A stretch of 13,984 nucleotides of DNA, taken from Nitrospinota bacterium. Lineage in GTDB: Bacteria > Tectomicrobia > Entotheonellia > J063. The first letter of the stretch is position 1. The number at the start of each line of letters is the position of its first letter. The translations under genes and the position numbers were made by a program. The stretch spans positions 1-13,984 of the forward strand of contig RFHZ01000257.1 of NCBI GenBank assembly GCA_003696125.1. The letters run 5' to 3'. Below the pieces are notes generated by a model. The model worked only from the letters and a program-made list of their open reading frames with translations, was not told the DNA's origin and ran no database searches. Shown piece by piece: positions 42 to 10,792 of the stretch.

Positions 42-77
42 AGCCCTTTGGCAGTGATGCTGAAGGGCTTTTTCTTT
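42..77 (+). terminator. Rho-independent terminator of the tRNA transcript
   Basis: A hairpin with outer arms AGCCCTT (42-48) and AAGGGCT (63-69), and an inner GCA/TGC pairing (51-53 with 58-60), is followed by TTTTTCTTT. It sits six bases after the tRNA discriminator and should end the tRNA transcript. Any expression of the next gene would need read-through or a start between 70 and 110. Confidence 0.85.
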
Positions 78-115
78 CTGGGAATACCTGGACCTATCGA
101 CAGGGGGAAGTTCAC

Positions 116-778
116 TTGCATCCTATCTTTTCACGTCCCTTTGGCATCTTTGATCTGGACCACACCATCTTCAACCAGCGTATCCTCCTGAAGCGTAACT
201 TCGGCCGCTTCTTCCAACGCACCTACGGCATCCCTCCTCAGGTCAGCATGCGCCTGTTCGACACAGCGGGTCATCTCCCCCTGGAAGAGCGGTTTCGCCT
301 GGTGTTGCAACAACACCGGCACTCCACCTCCTCTCTCTCCCAGGATCTTGCTCGCTTCTGGGAACTGGTGGCAGCGGATCGGCCGGTGGTATATGAAGCG
401 GCACGGGAGGTGCTACAGCTCTGCCGAAACAGAGGGATCGTCCTCTTTGGTACCACTGACCTGTCGGAAGAGGTGATGCAACAGAAGCTGGTCACTACCC
501 GTTTAGATTCGCTCTTCTCCCGGGTATGCGGTCAAGAGACCGGTCCCAAAGGGCTTCCCCATCTCACCGTTTTCGCCCAGACCGTCTCCCTCCCCCTCTC
601 CTCGTTTATCGCACAGGCATTCTATGTGGTGGGAAATCTGAAAGACCTGGCCATCGCTCGTGCCCAGGGCATCTATAGTGTCGGTATTGCCCATACGGTC
701 TCTCCAGATGACCTGCGGCAGCATGGCGCCGATCAGGTACATTCCTTTATCGGGATTTTACTGCAGGACCAGACCTGA
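116..778 (+). CDS. HAD-superfamily hydrolase (putative phosphatase)
   Basis: A 220-residue protein of the haloacid dehalogenase superfamily, cytoplasmic, most likely a small-molecule phosphatase related to phosphoglycolate phosphatase-like enzymes. Motif I is FDLDHT with nucleophile D13 and acid D15. A helical cap region follows. Motif II is FGTT (T113 or T114), motif III is K145, and motif IV is VVGNLKD with D177. Motif IV has N174 where many relatives carry a first aspartate, a common variation. The start is TTG at 116, chosen because GGGGGAAG (103-110) lies five bases upstream and motif I then falls at residue 13, as is usual. It follows tRNA-Asp and its terminator with no good promoter visible. 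Its TGA abuts the TAA of the convergent endonuclease-helicase gene. The substrate cannot be predicted. Confidence 0.85.
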   Translation: MHPIFSRPFGIFDLDHTIFNQRILLKRNFGRFFQRTYGIPPQVSMRLFDTAGHLPLEERFRLVLQQHRHSTSSLSQDLARFWELVAADRPVVYEAAREVLQLCRNRGIVLFGTTDLSEEVMQQKLVTTRLDSLFSRVCGQETGPKGLPHLTVFAQTVSLPLSSFIAQAFYVVGNLKDLAIARAQGIYSVGIAHTVSPDDLRQHGADQVHSFIGILLQDQT

Positions 779-3700
779 TTAGGAGAAGAGGGAGAGTTGC
801 GTAGGAGCAGGAGGACCGCTCTCCCGCTGCAGCACCGTTTTGCGCAGGAGATGAGAAGGAATTTCTGCCACAAAGCGGGAGGGGGGACGACGGGTGGTCA
901 CACCAAACAGGGTTCGGGTGGCAGATGAGGTGAGGATCAACCTATCCTGTGCCCGGGTAATCCCGACATAAAAGAGCCGCCTCTCTTCGGCCAGATCACT
1001 CGACAATCCCTGCAGACGGCAAGGAAAGATCCCCTCTTCCAGTCCGGTGATAAACACCACCGGGAATTCGAGTCCCTTGGCGGCGTGGAGAGTCATCAAG
1101 GCTACCGCTTCTATCCGCTCATCGTAAACGGTACCGCTCGCCTGCTGTTCGAGATAGGTGGCAAACGCAACGAGGTCCTTCCCGAAAGCGCTGGCCAGCC
1201 GGAGCAATCGTTGTGCCCCTGCCTGCTCGGTATCGATCCCCAGATAGGCCATGGCAGGAGCTAAGGCTACTTCTATCCCCTGAACGGCGCTCTTCTCCTG
1301 AAAACACCGGAGATGGTCCTGCAGTTCCCTGAGCTTCTCCCGCGTCCTGGAGGGAAGCTCGATCTGGGCCGCAGCATGAAAGAAGTCGGAATAGCGAAGA
1401 GGGAGTTCCCGTTCCATCTTGCGCAGGGTAACGGGACCGATTCCCTGGAGTCTTCCCAGCAAGAAGAGATGTTCTGGGGCTGCAGGATCTACCGCTGCCC
1501 GGATCCAGTGGTACGCACTCCTGATAGCCGGGGTGAGAAAAAAGGGGGTAACCCCTACCACCTGAAAGGGGATGCCATGTCTTTCCAGGGTCTCACCCAA
1601 CACCTGGGCCTGTAAGGAGAGACGGTAGAGGATGGCCATATCCTTAAAGCTCCTCTCCCTGGGTTCCTCCTCACCACCACGGCCACTATCAATCGAAAAG
1701 TGGCTGATTCCCCCTACCAGTTCCTCGATGCGGCGAACAATCAGCTCTGCTTCTGCCTGGGGGGTAGGAGTCAGATAGTGCTCGATCAGAGAGGATCGGT
1801 TTCGTTGCGGCACCAGGATGGACTCTCCTTGTTGAGAGTTATGGCTGATAACGGCTGTTGCTGCGTCTAAAATAGTCGGGGAAGACCGGTAATTACGAGT
1901 CAGGGTCAGGGTCTGTGCTCCACACTCCTCGGCAAAGCGATAGAAGAACCGAAGATCTGCTCCGCGAAAGCCGTAAATCGCCTGATTGGGATCCCCAATG
2001 GCAAACACACCGGCCTTTTCTGCCAGAGTCTTCACCAAGCGGTATTGAGCGGCGTTGAGATCCTGGAATTCATCGACAAACACGTAGTCTATGGCCTGGC
2101 ATACCTCCTGTCGAAAGGCCGGCTCTGTGGAGAGGCGATGGCTGAAAAAGGGGAGGACAGCTTCCAGATCGATTCCGTGCTCTTCTTCCAGGGCGGCGAG
2201 GTAGCGTTGAACAGCCGGGGAGGGCACACGCCGCTCCCCTTCTTCCCCTGTAGAAAGCAGGTGAAAATAGGCAGAAATCTCCTCACTGAGGGCACGGAGG
2301 GCACTCTGGTCGAGTTCCGGGAAACGGCTCTTCAATACCAGCAGCCGGCCCTCTTCCCCCACCACGACCAGGTCAGGCTGTTCTTTGCGTAGCCAGTGCA
2401 GGCAAAAATGGTGGAACGTTCCGACCAACACCTCTTGAGCCAGAGGACCGAGTGCCTGCCTCAGTCGCTCTCGCACCTCTTCGGCCGCTCGATTGGTAAA
2501 GGTGATGGCCACCACACGGGCAGGAGAAACCTGGCCGGTAGCAAGGAGATGGACCAGCCTGGCAATCAGGGTAAACGTCTTCCCGGTTCCGGGTCCAGCA
2601 GAAACGAGGAGATGGCGGGCAGTGCTGGCGACTGCTTCTGCCTGTTCAGGATTCAGACGGCCTTGGGGTACCGCTTCCCCAGAAGGTAAAGGAGCAGGTT
2701 TAGCAGGAGGGAGGAGGGAGGAGGCAGCAGATTGAACCGTCTCTGCTTCCGTCTTGCCCTGTGGGAAGAGGCTGATCTGTCCCAGGAGGGTATCCAGCTC
2801 TCCTGGGGCGAAGACGGTGATCTTTCCGAAGGTCCCGTCATACCCAGGGACTCGATGCACCGTTCCGGCTCGAATGCGTCGGATCGCCTCTCCCAGCAGA
2901 GGAGAATATCGCTGCGAGAGGTCTTCCAGGGGGGTTTGCAGCAGCACATTGTACTCGGAACCAAAGAGGTTGATCACCCGGGTATATTCGCTTAAAACCC
3001 GTTTACTCTCCGGACCGGTACGCATGATCTCTCCCAGCACTTCGGGAAGGGGGATGAGAGAGTGGAAGCCGGGGTCTCCCTCTGGATAGTAAGGAGTTTC
3101 TCGGTCGGCCAACTCCCGCACCCGGTGCATCACGCCGATGGTGAGGGGTCGTTGACAGACCGGACAGAGGCCGTTATACTGGCGTGTCTCTTCTGGCGCG
3201 AGGCACACCTGGCACTTGCGGTGGCCATCCAGGTGGTACTTCCCCTCTTCCGGGAAGAACTCGATGGTCCCCAGAAAACCTTTAGACGGCTCTCTTAGTG
3301 CCTCGCGCAGGGAGAAAAAGTCGAAGCCGGTGGCAAAGCGATTCGCTTCCCGTCCCAGTTTGGCCGGTGAGTGGGCATCAGAATTGGAGATCAGGGTAAA
3401 CCGGTCCAAAGCAGAGACCAGACGATTCATGTCCGGATCTGAAGAGAGGCCGGTCTCCAGGGCAAAGATATGCCCGGTGAGATCGGCAAAGCACTCCTCA
3501 AGTGAGTCGAAGCCGGATTTTGATCCCAAGACCGAAAACCAGGGGGTCCAGACATGGGCAGGTACCAGGAATCCCTCTGGTGTGGTTTCCAGGAGGATTT
3601 CCAGCAGGTCACGAGAATCGAGCCCCAGAATAGGACGACCATCTGATTCGATGTTCCCGATGCTGGCCAGCCGGGCATTGAGTCGTTCAACCGATGCCAA

Positions 3701-4042
3701 ATCCGGGACGAACAAGACATGGTGCACCTTGCGGACCTTCTGGTCTTTCTTATAGATGGTGCTGATCTCCACGGTAAGGACGAAGCGGACCGGTATCGCT
3801 TCGGGAGAGGTGTCGGGGAGTCCAGGCGGGACGTTTTCGTTCTTAAGCCGGAAAAAACCGGGCTCTGCCGGCTGCAGGTGTTCCTTGAGATGGGCTAACC
3901 ACTGGGGATGAGTGAAGTCACCGGTTCCTACCACGTGGATACCCTTCATCCGGGCCCAGGCAAACAGGCCGGCCAGGTCCCCCTTCTTGCTGGTGGCCCG
4001 GGAAAAAGGAGAATGGAGATGGAGATCGGCGATATACTGCAT
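779..4042 (-). CDS. Fusion of endonuclease Q-like PHP nuclease and UvrD/Rep-family helicase
   Basis: 1087 residues in two parts. Residues 1-425 match the EndoQ-type PHP family, which nicks DNA 5' of deaminated bases. Visible metal-binding motifs are DLHLHS (H8, H10), GDFTH (D42, H45), VEIS (E92), PAHVW (H163) and NSDAHSP (D222, H224). A four-cysteine zinc site follows (C277, C280, C293, C296). Residues 427-461 are a Pro/Ala-rich linker. Residues 462-1070 are a complete SF1A helicase: Q motif NPEQ (464), Walker A GPGTGKT (483-489), ITFTNRA (513), DEFQD (657-661), GDPNQAIYGFRG (683), NYRS (717), TLHAAKGLEF (984) and VGITRAQDR (1026). QISLF (422-426) and QLSLF (1082-1086) look like sliding-clamp-binding motifs. 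It starts six bases after the guaA stop with GGGAG inside the end of guaA, so it is probably cotranscribed. No key residue appears lost. Enzyme activity is inferred. Confidence 0.92.
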   Translation of the reverse strand: MQYIADLHLHSPFSRATSKKGDLAGLFAWARMKGIHVVGTGDFTHPQWLAHLKEHLQPAEPGFFRLKNENVPPGLPDTSPEAIPVRFVLTVEISTIYKKDQKVRKVHHVLFVPDLASVERLNARLASIGNIESDGRPILGLDSRDLLEILLETTPEGFLVPAHVWTPWFSVLGSKSGFDSLEECFADLTGHIFALETGLSSDPDMNRLVSALDRFTLISNSDAHSPAKLGREANRFATGFDFFSLREALREPSKGFLGTIEFFPEEGKYHLDGHRKCQVCLAPEETRQYNGLCPVCQRPLTIGVMHRVRELADRETPYYPEGDPGFHSLIPLPEVLGEIMRTGPESKRVLSEYTRVINLFGSEYNVLLQTPLEDLSQRYSPLLGEAIRRIRAGTVHRVPGYDGTFGKITVFAPGELDTLLGQISLFPQGKTEAETVQSAASSLLPPAKPAPLPSGEAVPQGRLNPEQAEAVASTARHLLVSAGPGTGKTFTLIARLVHLLATGQVSPARVVAITFTNRAAEEVRERLRQALGPLAQEVLVGTFHHFCLHWLRKEQPDLVVVGEEGRLLVLKSRFPELDQSALRALSEEISAYFHLLSTGEEGERRVPSPAVQRYLAALEEEHGIDLEAVLPFFSHRLSTEPAFRQEVCQAIDYVFVDEFQDLNAAQYRLVKTLAEKAGVFAIGDPNQAIYGFRGADLRFFYRFAEECGAQTLTLTRNYRSSPTILDAATAVISHNSQQGESILVPQRNRSSLIEHYLTPTPQAEAELIVRRIEELVGGISHFSIDSGRGGEEEPRERSFKDMAILYRLSLQAQVLGETLERHGIPFQVVGVTPFFLTPAIRSAYHWIRAAVDPAAPEHLFLLGRLQGIGPVTLRKMERELPLRYSDFFHAAAQIELPSRTREKLRELQDHLRCFQEKSAVQGIEVALAPAMAYLGIDTEQAGAQRLLRLASAFGKDLVAFATYLEQQASGTVYDERIEAVALMTLHAAKGLEFPVVFITGLEEGIFPCRLQGLSSDLAEERRLFYVGITRAQDRLILTSSATRTLFGVTTRRPPSRFVAEIPSHLLRKTVLQRESGPPAPTQLSLFS

Positions 4043-4048
4043 AAGCGT

Positions 4049-5845
4049 CTACTCCCACTCAATCGTTGCCGGAGGTTTGTTGGTGACATCATAGAAGACC
4101 GCATCGATGCCGGGCAGGGTCAGCAACCGGTGAGCAAGCTGGATGACAAGAGGTCCGGGCAACTTCGCATATTCGGCAGTCATCCCGTCCAGAGAGCTTA
4201 CCGGCCGCAGGGCGATCGATTCACCGACTTCTATGCGTAGAGGAAGCAAGACAACCGGACATTGCCAGATACGCGACTGCCAGTCGTGCTCCTGGAGAAA
4301 CTCGTTCACCATCCTGTCTGCCTGCCGGAGAAGATCGAGCCGTGCCCGGGTGACTTCGGCCCTGATAACTCGCATATCCCTGAGCCGTTTCCCCTGTCGT
4401 GCCTGCACCAGGTACGCCACCCGGTTTACCGTCGGAATCGTGTTGGTGATGTCTGTAGAAACATCCTCGAGTTTTTCCAGAGAGCCCTGCCCGCTGATCA
4501 GCACCAGGTCGGTATAGCTGCGATAATCTCCCTGCACTCCAACGGTCTTGAGGGGGGCGAGAGCCCCCTCCATCCCGTAAGTCTGACAGAGGGAGGAGAG
4601 GTCGGCAGGAAAACGCAAAGGGGCCTCCTCCCGGGAACAGAGACAGCGGATGGCCAGTCCTGGCCCGGGGAAGGGATGTCTCCAGACGATGGCCGGGGGG
4701 AGTCCGAGCTGGAGTCCGATCTCCCGCACCTCATCCTTATAGAACTCGACCAGGGGCTCGAGGATCTTCCCCTGCTGCATGAGTTCCTGGACTATATCCA
4801 CCCGGTTATGATGCGTCTTGATGACGGCGGCATGGGCACTGCCTCCCGATTCTATGGTATCCGGATAGATCGTCCCCTGGCCCACCAGCCACTCTTCTCC
4901 CGGCTGGTAGATCTGCTGAAGACTCCTCTCCTGAACCTCCAGGAACTTGCGGCCGATCCGCACCCGTTTCTCCTCAGGTTCATATACCCCGTGCAGGGCC
5001 GCGATAAATTCGGCACTGGCATCGAGGATATGGACACTGTCGAGGATACCGAGTCGCCGGAAGGTCTCCTGCAACATCTCTGTTTCCCCTTGCCGCATAA
5101 ACCCGGTATCCACGTACAGCCCGACCACCCGATCCCCTCCCAGAGCCTTTACGCAGAGGGTAAAGGCGACCGTAGAATCGACCCCGCCACTGATCAGGAA
5201 GAAGACCTTCTTCCTTTCCCCCTTCTCCCGGATGGTGGCCAGGAGACGAGGAATGGTCTGCTTCGGGTCCCAGTCGGACTGACACCGGCAGATGGTGAAG
5301 ACGAAGTTTCTGAGGATCTGCTGGCCGGAGACGGTATGGACAACCTCAGGGTGGAATTGGAGGCCATAGATCCGGGCCTGGGGGTTTGCCATGGCTGCCA
5401 CTGGACAGTCGGGAGTAGACGCCAGCACCTTAAAGGCAGGGGGAGGGGTCTCGACCACATCAGAATGGCTCATCCACACCGTTTCACAGGCATCTAATCC
5501 CTCCAAAATCGTTTCCCGCTGCTGAACGGCGAGATGCGCCAGCCCATACTCCTTGACCTCTCCAGGAGTCACCTTCCCCCCGAGCACCTGGGCGAGCAAC
5601 TGGTGTCCATAGCAGATACCCAGGATCGGGACTCCCAGGGAGAAGAGCCGCCTATCCATGGTGGGACTCGCCGGGGCATACACGCTATGGGGGCCCCCTG
5701 AAATAATAATCCCTCGCACTCCGGCCAGCGCTTCCCAGGGGGTATCGATCTCCTTGATCTCTGTATAGACCCCCATGTCCCGGATGCGCCGGGCGATCAG
5801 GTGACAGTACTGACCACCCGCATTTAAGACGACGATTTGACTCAT
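4049..5845 (-). CDS. guaA: GMP synthase (glutamine-hydrolysing), long form
   Basis: Converts XMP to GMP using glutamine and ATP, the last step of de novo GMP synthesis, in the cytoplasm. The glutaminase domain (about 1-190) has GICYGHQ with nucleophile C78 and FHPE with H165 and E167. The ATP pyrophosphatase domain has the P-loop SGGVDS (219-224) and HPFPGPGLAIR (390-400). The C-terminus ends with the family signature KPPATIEWE. The protein has 598 residues against about 510-525 for the usual bacterial form. The extra length lies after residue 400, where a first subdomain with LKTVGVQGDYRSY (432-444) and NRVAYLV precedes a second (about 500-598). This resembles the two-subdomain dimerisation region of animal GMP synthase. 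ATG is preceded by AGAGGG. It heads an operon with the downstream endonuclease-helicase. Confidence 0.96.
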   Translation of the reverse strand: MSQIVVLNAGGQYCHLIARRIRDMGVYTEIKEIDTPWEALAGVRGIIISGGPHSVYAPASPTMDRRLFSLGVPILGICYGHQLLAQVLGGKVTPGEVKEYGLAHLAVQQRETILEGLDACETVWMSHSDVVETPPPAFKVLASTPDCPVAAMANPQARIYGLQFHPEVVHTVSGQQILRNFVFTICRCQSDWDPKQTIPRLLATIREKGERKKVFFLISGGVDSTVAFTLCVKALGGDRVVGLYVDTGFMRQGETEMLQETFRRLGILDSVHILDASAEFIAALHGVYEPEEKRVRIGRKFLEVQERSLQQIYQPGEEWLVGQGTIYPDTIESGGSAHAAVIKTHHNRVDIVQELMQQGKILEPLVEFYKDEVREIGLQLGLPPAIVWRHPFPGPGLAIRCLCSREEAPLRFPADLSSLCQTYGMEGALAPLKTVGVQGDYRSYTDLVLISGQGSLEKLEDVSTDITNTIPTVNRVAYLVQARQGKRLRDMRVIRAEVTRARLDLLRQADRMVNEFLQEHDWQSRIWQCPVVLLPLRIEVGESIALRPVSSLDGMTAEYAKLPGPLVIQLAHRLLTLPGIDAVFYDVTNKPPATIEWE

Positions 5846-5909
5846 GATCCCTCTACCTCTTCTTACCTCGTTGTATCCCGATGATCGAGATCGGCTTTTG
5901 TTTTCTCTT

Positions 5910-5938
5910 ACTATACGTCATACCAGGGCTGTACTCAA
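5910..5938 (-). promoter_or_regulatory. Sigma-70-type promoter for guaA and the nuclease-helicase gene
   Basis: Read on the minus strand, TTGAGT (5938-5933) and TATAGT (5915-5910) are separated by exactly 17 bases. That is four of six and five of six matches to the consensus hexamers. Transcription would start near 5903, giving a leader of about 58 bases before the guaA ATG. I see no guanine riboswitch core in that short leader. Confidence 0.7.
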
Positions 5939-5977
5939 CCCCATCCAGGCGCTTCTGGGAGAAAGTATCTCTGCCTA

Positions 5978-6076
5978 GGGAATTTTTCCCCCTATAACAG
6001 GGCATTTTCCCCTCCCCCTCTCCGGTATCAGCCGGATAGGCCTCTCCCCTTTTCCACCGTATACTGATAGTGGAAA
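5978..6076 (+). promoter_or_regulatory. Inverted repeats and weak promoter elements upstream of the small membrane protein gene
   Basis: The 282-base divergent region between guaA and the small membrane protein gene holds several symmetric elements. These are GGGAA/TTCCC (5978-5990), TCCGG/CCGGA around TATCAG (6021-6036), and perfect seven-base arms TTTCCAC (6051-6057) and GTGGAAA (6070-6076). Candidate -10 boxes are TATAAC (5993-5998) and TATACT (6060-6065). The second lies inside the TTTCCAC/GTGGAAA repeat, as a repressor operator would. Neither has a convincing -35 box, so an activator may be needed. This is pattern reading only. Confidence 0.35.
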
Positions 6077-6127
6077 GAGAGGAGAGCTAGAGGAGAGAGT
6101 CTAACGGAGAGAAAGGAGGAGAAAATC

Positions 6128-6427
6128 ATGACTCGTTATCATGGAGGAGAGAGGGTTAAGGCAGGTTATTACTGGAACATCTCTCGCTGGGAAATCGTCA
6201 CCGTTCCCCCACCAGGAGGAGTACTCCCTGGAGAGCATGCCTCCTATCTTCGGCTTCCCCTTCTTCTGGTGGCACTGTTCGCCCCGCTCATCGGTGGACT
6301 GTATGTGATCTTCCTGCCCTTCATCGGTTTTGCCATGCTCTTGAGCTTTGCCGCTAAAGAGCTCTTCTCCCTTGTCCACAGGCTGGTGAGCCGCCTGCTA
6401 ACCAAACCGGATACGGTGGAAGAGTAA
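6128..6427 (+). CDS. Small membrane protein of unknown function
   Basis: A 99-residue protein that I cannot assign to a characterised family. A polar N-terminus (1-38) contains aromatic-rich YYWNISRWE (14-22) and a Pro/Gly stretch, PPPGGVLPG (27-35). A hydrophobic segment from about 41 to 76, long enough for two close transmembrane helices, contains FAPLIGGLYVIFLPFIGF. A basic helix (81-92) and an acidic end follow. The start is well supported: AAGGAGG (6113-6119) lies eight bases before ATG. It is a single-gene unit between divergent guaA and convergent response-regulator genes, followed by a terminator-like hairpin. The amino acid pattern, the strong ribosome site and the TM segment argue that it is a real gene. 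An inner-membrane accessory role is possible but unsupported. Confidence 0.75.
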   Translation: MTRYHGGERVKAGYYWNISRWEIVTVPPPGGVLPGEHASYLRLPLLLVALFAPLIGGLYVIFLPFIGFAMLLSFAAKELFSLVHRLVSRLLTKPDTVEE

Positions 6428-6431
6428 ACTG

Positions 6432-6465
6432 AAGGGGGAGGAAGATCCCCTTTTGGCTCCTCCCT
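6432..6465 (+). terminator. Terminator-like hairpin between convergent genes
   Basis: Two mutually exclusive hairpins occur. AAGGGG (6432-6437) pairs with CCCCTT (6447-6452), followed by TTTT counting the stem end, which would serve the plus strand. GGGAGGA (6436-6442) pairs with TCCTCCC (6458-6464). The 38-base gap between the membrane protein gene and the response-regulator gene is where termination is expected in both directions. The T tract is short, so strength is uncertain. Confidence 0.5.
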
Positions 6466-7110
6466 CTATGCAATGATACGTCGTTGTATGGCGAACTTAA
6501 CCAGCTCGGCTCTATTATGGATGCCGAGCTTTTCCATCAGATGGGCCCGGTGGCCCATGGCCGTCTTTACACTGATACCCAGGATGGTGGCGATCTCCTT
6601 ATTCGTCTTCCCCTCGGCCACCAGCTTCAACACCTGTTTCTCCCGGTCAGTCAAGGTCTCATAAGGGTCTTCTGGTGGGGAAGGAGCCCTGCCCAGATAC
6701 CCTTCAACGACCGCAGGGGCCACATCGGGATGGAGGAAGGTTCCTCCCTGGGCCACCGCCCTGATGGCGGCAACGAGTTCGGTTCCTGCCGCCCGTTTTA
6801 ATACATACCCAGAGACACCGGCTTTGAGGAAACGGTACAGGTACTCACGGTTGTCGTATTGGGTAAGGATCAGGATTTTGAGTTCGGGAAAGCGCTTCTT
6901 GAGTTCTAATGTGGCTTCCAGTCCTCCGAGACCGGGCATGGCGATGTCCATCAGCACGATGTCTGGCCGACATGTTTGCACCCGTTCGATCGCCTCTCTT
7001 CCGTCCGCCGCCTCTCCCACCACCTCCAGGTCATCATAGGCGGAGAGCAAGGCCTTGATCCCCTCCCGGAAGAGGGCATGATCATCGGCAATAAGCAGCT
7101 TGATCGGCAT
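6466..7110 (-). CDS. NarL/FixJ-family response regulator
   Basis: A 214-residue cytoplasmic transcription regulator. The receiver domain (about 3-120) has acidic D9 and D10, phosphoacceptor D55 in LMDIAMPG, T83 and K105, all the residues needed for phosphorylation. A LuxR-type helix-turn-helix occupies about 150-211 (LTDREKQVLKLVAEGKTNKEIA, then a recognition helix near 180-190). It begins within the stop codon of the upstream kinase gene (TGATG overlap), so the two are translationally coupled and certainly a cognate pair. As the last gene of the cytochrome operon, its target is likely that operon or other respiratory genes. It lacks the AAA+ domain needed to activate sigma-54, so it cannot itself drive the sigma-54-like site at 10902-10918. 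Confidence 0.95.
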   Translation of the reverse strand: MPIKLLIADDHALFREGIKALLSAYDDLEVVGEAADGREAIERVQTCRPDIVLMDIAMPGLGGLEATLELKKRFPELKILILTQYDNREYLYRFLKAGVSGYVLKRAAGTELVAAIRAVAQGGTFLHPDVAPAVVEGYLGRAPSPPEDPYETLTDREKQVLKLVAEGKTNKEIATILGISVKTAMGHRAHLMEKLGIHNRAELVKFAIQRRIIA

Positions 7111-8966
7111 CAGAGCCCTCCTCCCTTTCTTCCCTCTCTTAGCGGGACCTCTACGTGAACCCGGGTCCCTCTCCCCGGTGCCGACTGGATAACGAGGTTC
7201 CCCTCCAAGAGGGCTGCCCGTTCCTGCATCCCCAGGATTCCTAACCCCTGGCCTCCCTGACCGGCCTGTACCACCTGCTCCGGCTCGAACCCTTTTCCAT
7301 CATCTTCTATCTGGAGGCAGACGCTTTTTTCGTTGAAGGCGATCACCACCCTGACACTCTCCGCATCGGCGTGTCTGGCGATATTGGAGATGGCCTCCTG
7401 CCCGATCCGGAACAGGGTGGTCTCCACTTCCGGGGGGAGTCTTCGCTCCACACCGGTGACGGTAAAGGAGAGATCGATGCCCAGAGACTCGAGATGGCGC
7501 TCTGCCGACCATCGCAGGGCTGAGGAAAGCCCCAGATCGTCCAGGAGGGAAGGACGCAGATCAAAGATCAGGCGATGGACACTGTCTAAGGTTCTATCGA
7601 CCATCTCCTTCATGCGATAGAGGTGCTCTTTCAGCCTGTCTGGAGCAGTGGCAACACCGGTCTCCAGAGATACCAGGAGGGTGGCCAGGGCCTGGCTGGT
7701 CTCATCGTGCAGTTCTCGAGCGATCCTCTTTCGCTCCTCTTCTTGAGCCGTGATCACCTTTTTCAACAGCTCCCCTCGTATCTCCTCCTTGCTTTGGAGT
7801 TCCCGATAGAGCCTCTCCAGCTCTTGTGTCCGTTCCTGCACCCGTTTCTCTAAATCCCTTTTCCCTTCGGCAATGGTGGCCAAAGAGTCCTGCAAGGCCA
7901 GGCGCATCTGGTCAAAAGTGTAGGCCAGCCGGCCGATTTCATCCTCACCCAAAGCGGGAATCGGTTCATCAAGATTCCCCTGGGCGATACGCTGGGCCGC
8001 TTGTGTCAAGACTCCCAGAGGCCTGGTAACGCTCCTCGCCACTCCCCAGGCAAAGAGAAGGGACAGGAGTACGGTCAGGGTCCCGATGAGGAAGAGGCGC
8101 TGTCTTATGAGCAGCACAGAGGCCAGGGCCTCCTTCTCTGCCTGGCGGATGCTCACTCCCCAGGGAGCAACCCGTAGTGGAGCAAAGGCGATGACCTCAC
8201 GCTCCCGCTCCGGGACTCCCCCCTCCTCATGGCAACTATGGCAGGTTCCCACCACCGATCTCTTCTCCTGGATCAAGCGCCTTAAGAAACGACCGTGATC
8301 ACTCTTCTGAAAGGTACGTCCTTTACGGGTCGAAGCGAGCACGATCCCCTGGCCATCTACCAGTTCCAGGTAGGTGGTGTCCCCGAGGCGAAGCGGGTGC
8401 AGGAGGGAACGGAAGCGAGAACTCTCCGGATCCAATTCTCCCCCCACTACCCCGACCAGCTTCCCCCGCCAATCTCTTACCGGCACCACGGCATAGATCT
8501 TCCTTCCGCCAGGAACCAGATTCGAGACTTCCGGCTTTCCCGAGGCCAGGGCCTGCCGGATCAAAGGGAGCTTCCCCGGCTCTGGTAGTGACAAGGACCG
8601 CTGTGGTTCGCTCCAGACCCGCTTCCCTGTCTGGTCCAGGAGGAAGATTCCCCCGGTAAAAATAGAGCGGAGGAAGGCCTCGCGCAGTGATGCCCTCAGC
8701 GGGGCAATATCCTCCTCCCCGATTCCTGCCCGGGCTTCCAGGGCAACATTTTGCAGGAGGATCAAATTGGCCTGCAGCACATAGTCCAGGTGATCAGCCA
8801 CGGCCCGGGCCAGGCCCTGGCGTTCAGAGAGGACGCGAGCAGAGATCTCCTTGCTCTCCCAGAGGCTGGAGAGGCGCAAGGCAGCGGCCAGGACAAGCAT
8901 ACCTGTCCCGATCAGGAAGGTGATACGCCAGTGCAGGCTCCGACGGAGGAAACGAAACGGATTCAT
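7110..8966 (-). CDS. Sensor histidine kinase with periplasmic Cache-like domain and c-type haem motif
   Basis: A 618-residue inner-membrane kinase. TM1 is about 13-31, and a periplasmic region of about 250 residues with Cache-like features follows (for example GGIFLLDQTGKRVW near 105-118 and APLRVAPWGVSIRQAE near 262-277). TM2 is about 285-311, then HAMP (about 308-362) and a coiled coil (about 363-410). The HisKA_3 helix has phosphoacceptor H420 in RIARELHDE. The HATPase domain has N528, DDGKGF (555-560) and GQGLGILGM (572-580). CHSCH (242-246) is a canonical haem c attachment site on the periplasmic side, so the sensor probably binds one covalent haem. That suggests sensing of redox state or of a gas such as NO, O2 or CO (inference). 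It lies 12 bases after the cytochrome b gene and overlaps its response regulator. Confidence 0.94.
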   Translation of the reverse strand: MNPFRFLRRSLHWRITFLIGTGMLVLAAALRLSSLWESKEISARVLSERQGLARAVADHLDYVLQANLILLQNVALEARAGIGEEDIAPLRASLREAFLRSIFTGGIFLLDQTGKRVWSEPQRSLSLPEPGKLPLIRQALASGKPEVSNLVPGGRKIYAVVPVRDWRGKLVGVVGGELDPESSRFRSLLHPLRLGDTTYLELVDGQGIVLASTRKGRTFQKSDHGRFLRRLIQEKRSVVGTCHSCHEEGGVPEREREVIAFAPLRVAPWGVSIRQAEKEALASVLLIRQRLFLIGTLTVLLSLLFAWGVARSVTRPLGVLTQAAQRIAQGNLDEPIPALGEDEIGRLAYTFDQMRLALQDSLATIAEGKRDLEKRVQERTQELERLYRELQSKEEIRGELLKKVITAQEEERKRIARELHDETSQALATLLVSLETGVATAPDRLKEHLYRMKEMVDRTLDSVHRLIFDLRPSLLDDLGLSSALRWSAERHLESLGIDLSFTVTGVERRLPPEVETTLFRIGQEAISNIARHADAESVRVVIAFNEKSVCLQIEDDGKGFEPEQVVQAGQGGQGLGILGMQERAALLEGNLVIQSAPGRGTRVHVEVPLREGRKGGGL

Positions 8967-8978
8967 GACCCTCTCGTT

Positions 8979-9692
8979 TCACTGTTTGAGCGATTCATAA
9001 TCCCCTTTGCTCTCTTGCTCCAGGAGGCGGGCGTACTCTAAGGGATGCTCTTTTTGCATGCGCTCTCGAGAGATCTTCCCGGTAAAGATACTCGCATCAA
9101 AAGGGAAAACATCGGGATTGAGATGCGCATTATAGATATGCCAGACGATCACCACCAGGAAGGCCAGGAGTCCTTCACTCGAGTGGGCAACCTTGGCGGC
9201 AGGGATGATCTGTCCCGGAAGGAAACGGGTAAAGAAGGTCGGGGAGTAGAGGATAAAACCGGTGATGATCATGACTATTCCCCCAAAAACGAGGCCGAGG
9301 TACTCGAATTTCTGCCGATAGTCGTACCGATCAAACCGGGCCTGTTCTTCTGAAATGCCTAGATAGTAACGCAACATGATGATCGCATCCTGAAAATCTT
9401 TCTTCGTAGGGATCATGTTGGGAGCCACCCTCTTTCCGACTATCGAGGCCAAAACGAGCCCCAGATGTTCAACGGCGACAAGGGCAAAGAGGATTCCAGA
9501 GAAAAGGTGCACCCAACGTACCCGGTCGATACCCCCTATCTGCAGGATGAGCCACTGGGCCCAGCCAGCCTCGAAGAACTTCTGAGGAAAGCCGGTCAGG
9601 GCGAGGATGAAGAAGAGTCCCATGACCAGGAAATGCTCAAGTCGCTGCCGCCCACTGAAGCGGATCACATACCCGTGTTTCTCCCGCCTCAT
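8979..9692 (-). CDS. Membrane b-type cytochrome (formate dehydrogenase gamma/HydB-like)
   Basis: A 237-residue integral membrane protein with four predicted helices at about 18-36, 58-85, 131-150 and 166-188. Histidines placed to bind two b haems are H20 in helix 1, H62 and H76 in helix 2, and H170 and H185 in helix 4, as in the Ni/Fe-hydrogenase and formate dehydrogenase b-subunit family. The C-terminal tail (190-237) is hydrophilic and charged. It should oxidise or reduce membrane quinone and exchange electrons with the nine-haem cytochrome encoded 14 bases upstream. No hydrogenase or formate dehydrogenase catalytic subunit is present in the window, so a stand-alone quinol:cytochrome c module is more likely than a dehydrogenase subunit. 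Subunit partnership is inferred from gene order. Confidence 0.85.
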
Positions 9693-9706
9693 TTCTCTCC
9701 TCCTCT

Positions 9707-10792
9707 CTATCGATTCACCACCACCCGCCAGATATGGAGCAGGATCTGGAGTCCCAGGCCCAGGACCACAAAGGGGATAAAAACCTGATAGAAGAGCTTC
9801 ACATAGTAGACGAGGGCAGCCCTCTGCGGGCTCGGATCATAATGGGAGAGCCAGGCAGCCGGAAAGTTCTCCGTCGCCTCTGGGTGACACTTCTGGCAGA
9901 CCCTGACCAGATTCGCCTTGATGACGGTAGATTGAGGGTCCCGAACCGGTAAGATGTTATGCACACCATGGCAATCGGTACAGACAGCGGTAAAGTTCTT
10001 CGGCGTAATCCGCTCTCTCTGGTACAGAGAGGCGGTCATGCCATGAAAATCTCTCAGGTAGGTTTGCAGGACATTGGTCGAGAGCCCATAGCGTGCCATC
10101 AGCTCCCTGTCTGCATGACATCCGGCACAGAGGGCAGGGGTTCTCAGATGAAACGTTGCTGTCCGCGGATCTTCGATGGCATGGGAGCGGTGGCAGTCGG
10201 TACACACCGGGACATCCCCGTTTCCCCCTTCCAGTAGAGCCTTTCCATGGACACTGCGGGCGTATTGCTGGTATATCGCCTGATGGCAACGGGAACAGGT
10301 CCTGGAAATCCGTGATCTGGGGACGTCTGGACTCACCACATCATGGGCTCCGTGGCAGTCTACGCACAAGGGGGCGTTGATGTCTCCCTGGGAGAGCACC
10401 AGGTAGTGGACGCTATCCAGGGTCCTGGTGTAGTTATCAAAGTGGCACCCCTTGCAGCTCTCATAGTAGGCCAGGGTGAACTCTCGCAGGTCTTTAAATT
10501 CCCTCTCCGGATGGGGATAATCCGCAATGTCGCTATGGCAATCCACACAGTGCAGTTTCTCTCCATGAACGGAGCGAGCAAAGCTCTCTCCATCCACGAA
10601 GAGGGAAAGCCTCTCCCCACTGGGTAGCGTTAGGTCTAACTCCTGGTCGCTGTGACAGTCGAGGCAGAACTCCACCTCGGGCAGCAGGGCAGCCGGCTCT
10701 GCCACCACTGTCGATAGCCAGACGAGGAAGAGAACGCCGCCGACCAGCCAGCCACGTCTCCCGCTTTTCTGCCCGTCCCTTTTGTCTTTCAC
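9707..10792 (-). CDS. Membrane-anchored nonahaem c-type cytochrome
   Basis: 361 residues with nine CXXCH haem sites starting at residues 43, 82, 113, 143, 166, 197, 222, 271 and 299. Additional histidines that could be distal ligands include H76, H129, H150, H182, H204, H250 and H278. A signal or signal-anchor segment lies at about 14-31. A C-terminal helix (about 334-356) would tether the protein to the periplasmic face of the inner membrane. The start is GTG, preceded by AAGGGGGAAG. The next gene encodes a b-type cytochrome. Nine c haems plus a dihaem b domain is the composition of Geobacter CbcL, a menaquinol oxidoreductase, where both parts are one polypeptide in the same order. It likely passes electrons from quinol to periplasmic carriers. 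The terminal acceptor is unknown. Confidence 0.92.

Follow-up and report, generated by a model that had tools for sequence, protein, structure and literature searches.

An EndoQ-like nuclease fused to a UvrD/PcrA-like helicase is widespread in bacteria and carries two predicted sliding-clamp-binding motifs

A 13,984-nucleotide stretch of DNA from a Nitrospinota bacterium (GenBank assembly GCA_003696125.1, contig RFHZ01000257.1; the whole stretch is called the window) carries a gene in which an EndoQ-like nuclease module is joined to a UvrD/PcrA-like helicase. The original prediction had described a single uninterrupted frame of 1087 codons at positions 779-4042; translation bore this out, but on the minus strand, as the plus-strand reading of the same interval contains 14 stops and was ruled out. 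The features of the gene and its product are listed below in window coordinates. Residue conservation was counted over 52 fusion sequences and motifs over 88 complete, distinct fusions, and the roles of the PfuEndoQ residues were taken from a review.

4042..779, minus: EndoQ-helicase fusion gene, 1087 residues (open reading frame (ORF) list and translation; ATG start, stop codon 779-781, no internal stop)
2771..4042, minus: EndoQ-like module with PHP catalytic, zinc and C-terminal domains, residues 1-424 (phmmer and AlphaFold model comparison)
4013..4027, minus: PHP motif I, D6-L-H8-L-H10 (D6 and H10 in 52/52, H8 in 51/52 fusions)
3767..3769, minus: E92, aligned with the catalytic zinc ligand E76 of PfuEndoQ (invariant, 52/52)
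3722..3724, minus: H107, aligned with the catalytic zinc ligand H84 of PfuEndoQ (PMC8307549; invariant, 52/52)
3554..3556, minus: H163, aligned with PfuEndoQ H139, a catalytic ligand and base-pocket residue (PMC8307549; invariant, 52/52)
3443..3457, minus: E196-T-G198-L-S200, aligned with PfuEndoQ E167, G169 and S171 (E196, G198 and S200 invariant, 52/52)
3371..3382, minus: SDAH motif, S221-H224, aligned with the SDAH motif of PfuEndoQ, likewise reported as essential or specificity-giving (PMC4357722 and PMC8307549; S221, D222 and H224 in 52/52, A223 in 47/52)
3155..3214, minus: C4 zinc cluster, C277-x2-C280 ... C293-x2-C296 (from the sequence; complete in the window)
2765..2779, minus: linker clamp-binding-like motif QISLF, residues 422-426 (looser form of the motif in 55/88 fusions)
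2663..2770, minus: disordered linker, residues 425-460 (predicted local distance difference test (pLDDT) below 50)
821..2662, minus: UvrD/PcrA-like superfamily 1A (SF1A) helicase, residues 461-1074 (Pfam, phmmer and VIA-align)
2576..2599, minus: helicase motif I, AGPGTGKT, residues 482-489 (A482, G485, G487, K488 and T489 invariant in 52 fusions)
2060..2077, minus: helicase motif II, VDEFQD, residues 656-661 (D657, E658, Q660 and D661 invariant in 52 fusions)
953..988, minus: helicase motif VI, EERRLFYVGITR, residues 1019-1030 (E1019, E1020, R1021, R1022, V1026, T1029 and R1030 invariant)
785..799, minus: C-terminal clamp-binding-like motif QLSLF, residues 1082-1086 (78/88 fusions; 0/19 stand-alone PcrA-like helicases)

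By alignment, residues 1-424 are homologous to EndoQ, though outside the TIGR00375 equivalog. Searched alone with phmmer, the module matched PfuEndoQ over nearly its full length (residues 5-410 against residues 5-382 of PDB 5zb8; E 3.7e-53) and also 7k30, at an identity to archaeal EndoQ of 32-33%. An AlphaFold2 model built from the 52 fusion sequences (mean pLDDT 87) gave PfuEndoQ (5zb8_B) as the best structural match for residues 1-425 (VIA-align Z 43.5, 389 aligned residues, root-mean-square deviation 3.0; Foldseek agrees). Like PfuEndoQ and TkoEndoQ (5zb8, 7k30-7k33), the module has all domains, the mapped metal ligands and the base-pocket residues, so the similarity extends beyond the generic PHP fold. 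The PHP metal motifs claimed beforehand are all present: ligands D6, H10, D222 and H224 occur in every fusion compared, H8 is missing from one, and D6, H8 and H10 are likewise the motif I residues of PfuEndoQ (PMC4357722). In PfuEndoQ, E76A inactivates the enzyme, mutation of E76, H84 or H139 abolishes activity, and a pocket of H139, G169 and S171 excludes the normal bases T and A (PMC8307549); the equivalents of all five are invariant among the fusions. Nicking 5' of deaminated bases would thus be the expected activity of the module. The C4 zinc site, also claimed beforehand, is complete in the window protein but is not universal, C280 being present in only 24/52 fusions. Against TIGR00375 (NCBIfam hypoth_equivalog, EndoQ family) the window protein scored 167.4 bits, below the curated cut-off of 326.6; this cut-off was reached by 0/290 sampled bacterial genomes (mostly one per family), and therefore the low score is a general trait of the sampled bacterial homologues and no peculiarity of the window.

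The second half of the protein was confirmed as a complete UvrD/PcrA-like SF1A helicase by domain models, alignment, catalytic residues and predicted structure. Residues 462-1080 matched PcrA (1pjr; phmmer E 8e-84) up to PcrA residue 659 of 724, and the Pfam models UvrD-helicase and UvrD_C scored 190 and 160 bits (cut-offs 23 and 25.6, respectively). Residues K488, T489, D657, E658, Q687, R693, R719, E1019, E1020 and R1030 are invariant in the 52 fusions. Residues 458-1071 of the model superposed on UvrD 2is1 and PcrA 1qhg with Z ~42 (VIA-align; Foldseek agrees), and the complete SF1A core is common to the fusion and to PcrA, UvrD and Rep (1pjr, 2is1, 1uaa); helicases dominate both structural match lists, so that the absence of other folds there is uninformative. 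Unwinding in the 3'-5' direction would be expected of such a core. Thus sequence, predicted structure and conservation all support an EndoQ-like module and a full UvrD-like helicase in one chain. As with the EndoQ module, scores fell below the NCBIfam equivalog cut-offs (pcrA 352 vs 911, uvrD 294 vs 1144 and rep 294 vs 951 bits), and therefore automatic annotation likely names the protein a generic helicase, hiding a repair role.

The fusions end a median of 18 residues past the helicase core, whereas the 19 stand-alone PcrA-like helicases sampled extend further. The C-terminal part of PcrA/UvrD binds RNA polymerase (PMC3797733); unlike PcrA and UvrD, the fusion is without this extension, suggesting that the RNA-polymerase-binding C-terminus was lost and that a clamp motif took its place. 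The window protein ends in PTQLSLFS and its linker starts with GQISLF, both of which fit the bacterial sliding-clamp-binding consensus, QL[S/D]LF or QxxLF (PMC12309361). In the model, the linker motif lies at the edge of a disordered stretch, and the C-terminal one lies inside a disordered tail (residues 1075-1087, pLDDT below 50). The pattern Q[LMI]x[LMIF][FLWIM] was found within the C-terminal 15 residues of 78/88 fusions, compared with 0.8% of shuffled tails and 0.6% of internal windows; strict QxxLF was found there in 54/88, many of the others having close variants (e.g., QLRLI, QLRLL), while the last 15 residues lacked the strict motif in all 19 stand-alone PcrA-like helicases, which came from the same set of genomes. 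The looser linker motif, present in 55/88 fusions, occurred in 7.5% of shuffles. Both motifs are predicted to bind DnaN, the sliding clamp. The original prediction was thus right about the architecture, but it overlooked the two clamp motifs and the lost RNA-polymerase-binding C-terminus of PcrA.

Archaeal EndoQ binds PCNA via a C-terminal PCNA-interacting peptide (PIP) box and is stimulated by PCNA, and C-terminal clamp motifs had already been reported for bacterial EndoQ homologues in 2016 (PMC4858679 for both). The fusion resembles archaeal EndoQ in having a clamp motif C-terminal to the module, here of QxxLF type in place of the PIP box, but differs from that stand-alone protein of about 400-424 residues by the added helicase and a second clamp motif at the new C-terminus. 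Bacterial stand-alone EndoQ (the Bacillus pumilus enzyme, reported active, and two of the loci found here, L012 and L102) has the same module and no helicase. Since 24/34 stand-alone EndoQ ORFs end in a QxxLF-type motif, motif position suggests that the linker motif is the former C-terminus of EndoQ, and that the final motif belongs to the helicase.

The fusion is common in bacteria and no one-off. A scan of species genomes yielded at least 590 stretches related to it, and a tally by origin of the 80 retained loci gave 77 single-ORF fusions, from at least 15 named phyla plus KSB1; many of these loci are metagenome bins, and phyla with a single record call for caution. Among the 290 bacterial genomes, 79 had EndoQ-type (TIGR00375) matches and 27 had verified fusions. 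Thus the phylogenetic survey that the original prediction had called for found the fusion widespread, and EndoQ, which it had described as studied mostly in archaea, is by occurrence in this sample not chiefly archaeal. Moreover, the gene is no assembly chimera, because ~100 independent loci have this architecture in a single ORF each. Collections of phages (50,697 records) and plasmids (72,556 records) contained no match covering 80% of the fusion protein, consistent with a chromosomal housekeeping gene.

A degenerate relative occurs in one family (L163, G131:C44, ORF 782-4804 minus; L164, G267:C466, ORF 70-4296 minus). Its EndoQ part has SNAYSP in place of SDAHSP, its helicase shows DDYQD together with a disrupted motif III, and a long low-complexity linker holds several QxxLF motifs; judged from these motifs, it looks like a catalytically dead, clamp-binding form.

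The origin of the fusion was approached with unrooted trees of both halves, each from a quick search. In the EndoQ-module tree (maximum likelihood, 97 rows), all 63 fusions fell in one starred clade of 67 rows. The rest of this clade consists of a split gene pair, two stand-alone copies and an EndoQ fragment (G189) truncated by the end of its contig. In the helicase tree, a fully supported branch separated all 19 stand-alone PcrA-like helicases from every fusion. Two loci encode EndoQ and helicase as adjacent genes. In the first (L022, a Nitrospirae bin, 5577-8816), EndoQ falls just outside the fusion clade and the helicase joins the branch between the fusions and PcrA; its EndoQ terminates with QGTLF-stop, and 9 bases separate this from the helicase start. 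The shared frame means that this locus could conceivably be a fusion split by a nonsense change, but the lack of a linker speaks against it. In the second (L162, in genome G047, 2047-5024), inside the fusion clade, stop and start overlap as ATGA and the genes are in different frames. All four proteins of the two pairs have a clamp-like motif of their own, and the pairs thus provide an independent link between the two activities. As a working hypothesis, neighbouring genes may have given rise to one fusion, followed by at least one later split.

The fusion is probably, though by no means certainly, a bacterial excision-repair enzyme tethered to the sliding clamp, which nicks 5' of a deaminated base and then peels back the lesion-bearing strand. 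The EndoQ module would find a deaminated base (uracil, hypoxanthine or xanthine) or an abasic site and cut the phosphodiester bond on its 5' side, so that the nick would carry a 3'-OH and, at its 5' edge, the lesion. The 3'-5' helicase would then load on the intact strand opposite the nick, move 3'-5' along that strand and peel back the lesion-bearing 5' end as a flap for removal, while the 3'-OH would serve a polymerase on the same clamp, which could keep the nuclease, the helicase and the polymerase together at a single site. Nicking followed by unwinding from the nick, as originally proposed, would be geometrically sensible, and the clamp-binding motifs strengthen the case. PcrA and Rep displace the 5' end at rolling-circle nicks, working 3'-5' on the intact strand. 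Rolling-circle nickases paired with PcrA or Rep (RepD-PcrA, phiX174 A-Rep) therefore offer a working analogy for a specific nick followed by 3'-5' displacement of the 5' end: unlike the fusion, they are separate proteins, make a covalent nick and serve replication rather than repair, and the nickase shares no homology.

Several points weigh against this reading: i) our literature search found no biochemistry of the fusion; ii) the scores below the TIGR00375 and PcrA/UvrD/Rep equivalog cut-offs mean that substrate details may differ from those of archaeal EndoQ; iii) in the model the linker is flexible and a domain interface is only putative; iv) UDG, EndoV and a further PcrA-like helicase (gene G000:C608) are encoded in the window's genome as well, so the fusion is not its sole repair route.

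Other readings were weighed against it. It is unlikely that the helicase acts first, with the UvrD part travelling on DNA (e.g., at forks behind the clamp) and exposing single strands that the EndoQ part inspects for deaminated bases and cuts. EndoQ is reported active on both single- and double-stranded DNA (PMC8307549), and the clamp motifs would also suit a fork-associated scanner; against this, PfuEndoQ reads its lesion in a bent duplex from which the base is flipped out (PMC11354406), and a cut in an unwound strand ahead of a fork would break it. It is rather improbable that the two activities are uncoupled and that fusion only secures matching levels and a shared clamp tether for two repair enzymes working independently: the disordered linker (median inter-domain spacing of about 65 residues across fusions) and the re-split pair inside the fusion clade would suit such an arrangement, but both active sites are kept across many phyla and the split pairs remain adjacent, not dispersed.

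Anti-phage defence, in which the fusion would cut uracil-containing or modified phage DNA and the helicase would aid its degradation, appears quite improbable. An antiviral role besides repair has been suggested for bacterial EndoQ (PMC8307549), and the helicase half resembles GajB-type helicase models; however, the PADLOC matches (GajB and RTasHel) cover only this generic half, and neither PADLOC nor the phage and plasmid collections, with no match at 80% coverage, lent the idea support. Furthermore, no defence gene was found among the window genes scanned with Pfam, and no recurrent neighbour gene emerged at the other loci, in a noisy screen in which overlapping frames from the fusion gene swamped the clustering. 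Finally, a generic PHP phosphoesterase lacking EndoQ-type lesion specificity and attached to a helicase, which the sub-cut-off TIGR00375 score (167 vs 326.6 bits) might suggest, is very improbable, as no sampled genome exceeds that cut-off, the match spans all EndoQ domains (Z 43.5 to 5zb8) and the pocket residues are invariant.

The fusion is built from two known enzyme families and is undescribed as a fusion in the literature searched: no published description of an EndoQ-helicase fusion was found there, and the Desulfovibrio example of PMC4858679 could, on the accessible text, be either fused or stand-alone. More tentatively than the excision-repair role itself, we suggest a widespread undescribed pathway that relies on a single clamp-tethered protein both for incision at deaminated bases and for stripping off the damaged strand. 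This protein would have arisen by fusion of an EndoQ gene with a neighbouring UvrD-like gene and by a swap of the helicase's RNA-polymerase tether for a sliding-clamp tether. In the literature searched, the continuation after the EndoQ nick is only a proposal for archaea, namely strand displacement by polymerase and flap cutting (PMC4858679); the fused helicase is a candidate for the next step in bacteria. If so, deaminated bases would be removable without a glycosylase, on the sliding clamp, in many bacteria.

Repair genes of the same genome sample were compared with the presence of the fusion. EndoV was rarer in fusion genomes (4/27) than in the others (111/263; Fisher p 0.006, post hoc and with relatedness ignored), while genomes with stand-alone EndoQ exhibited no such depletion trend. 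UDG was absent from 3/27 fusion genomes and from 8/263 others (Fisher p 0.07, again post hoc and with relatedness ignored). The fusion as a replacement for UDG was rejected, since most fusion genomes (24/27) have UDG.

Directly upstream of the fusion gene, at a distance of 6 bases, lies a gene with which it is likely co-transcribed in the window:

4049..5845, minus: guaA, GMP synthase (Pfam)

This linkage is not conserved, as no guaA match was found in the other loci searched, most of them with flanks of up to 6 kb. A link to purine lesions derived from XMP or IMP was therefore rejected, guaA adjoining the fusion gene in the window only.

On the other side, a HAD-family hydrolase gene (116-778, plus) runs convergently towards the fusion gene, and its stop lies directly against the latter's end (778/779). 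The window also encodes a second, small PHP-domain protein (PF02811 and PHP_C PF13263; 12077-12739, plus), which is separate from the EndoQ module, and an apparent operon (6466-10792, minus) for a multihaem cytochrome c, a cytochrome b561-type protein, a Cache/HAMP histidine kinase and a LuxR-type response regulator.

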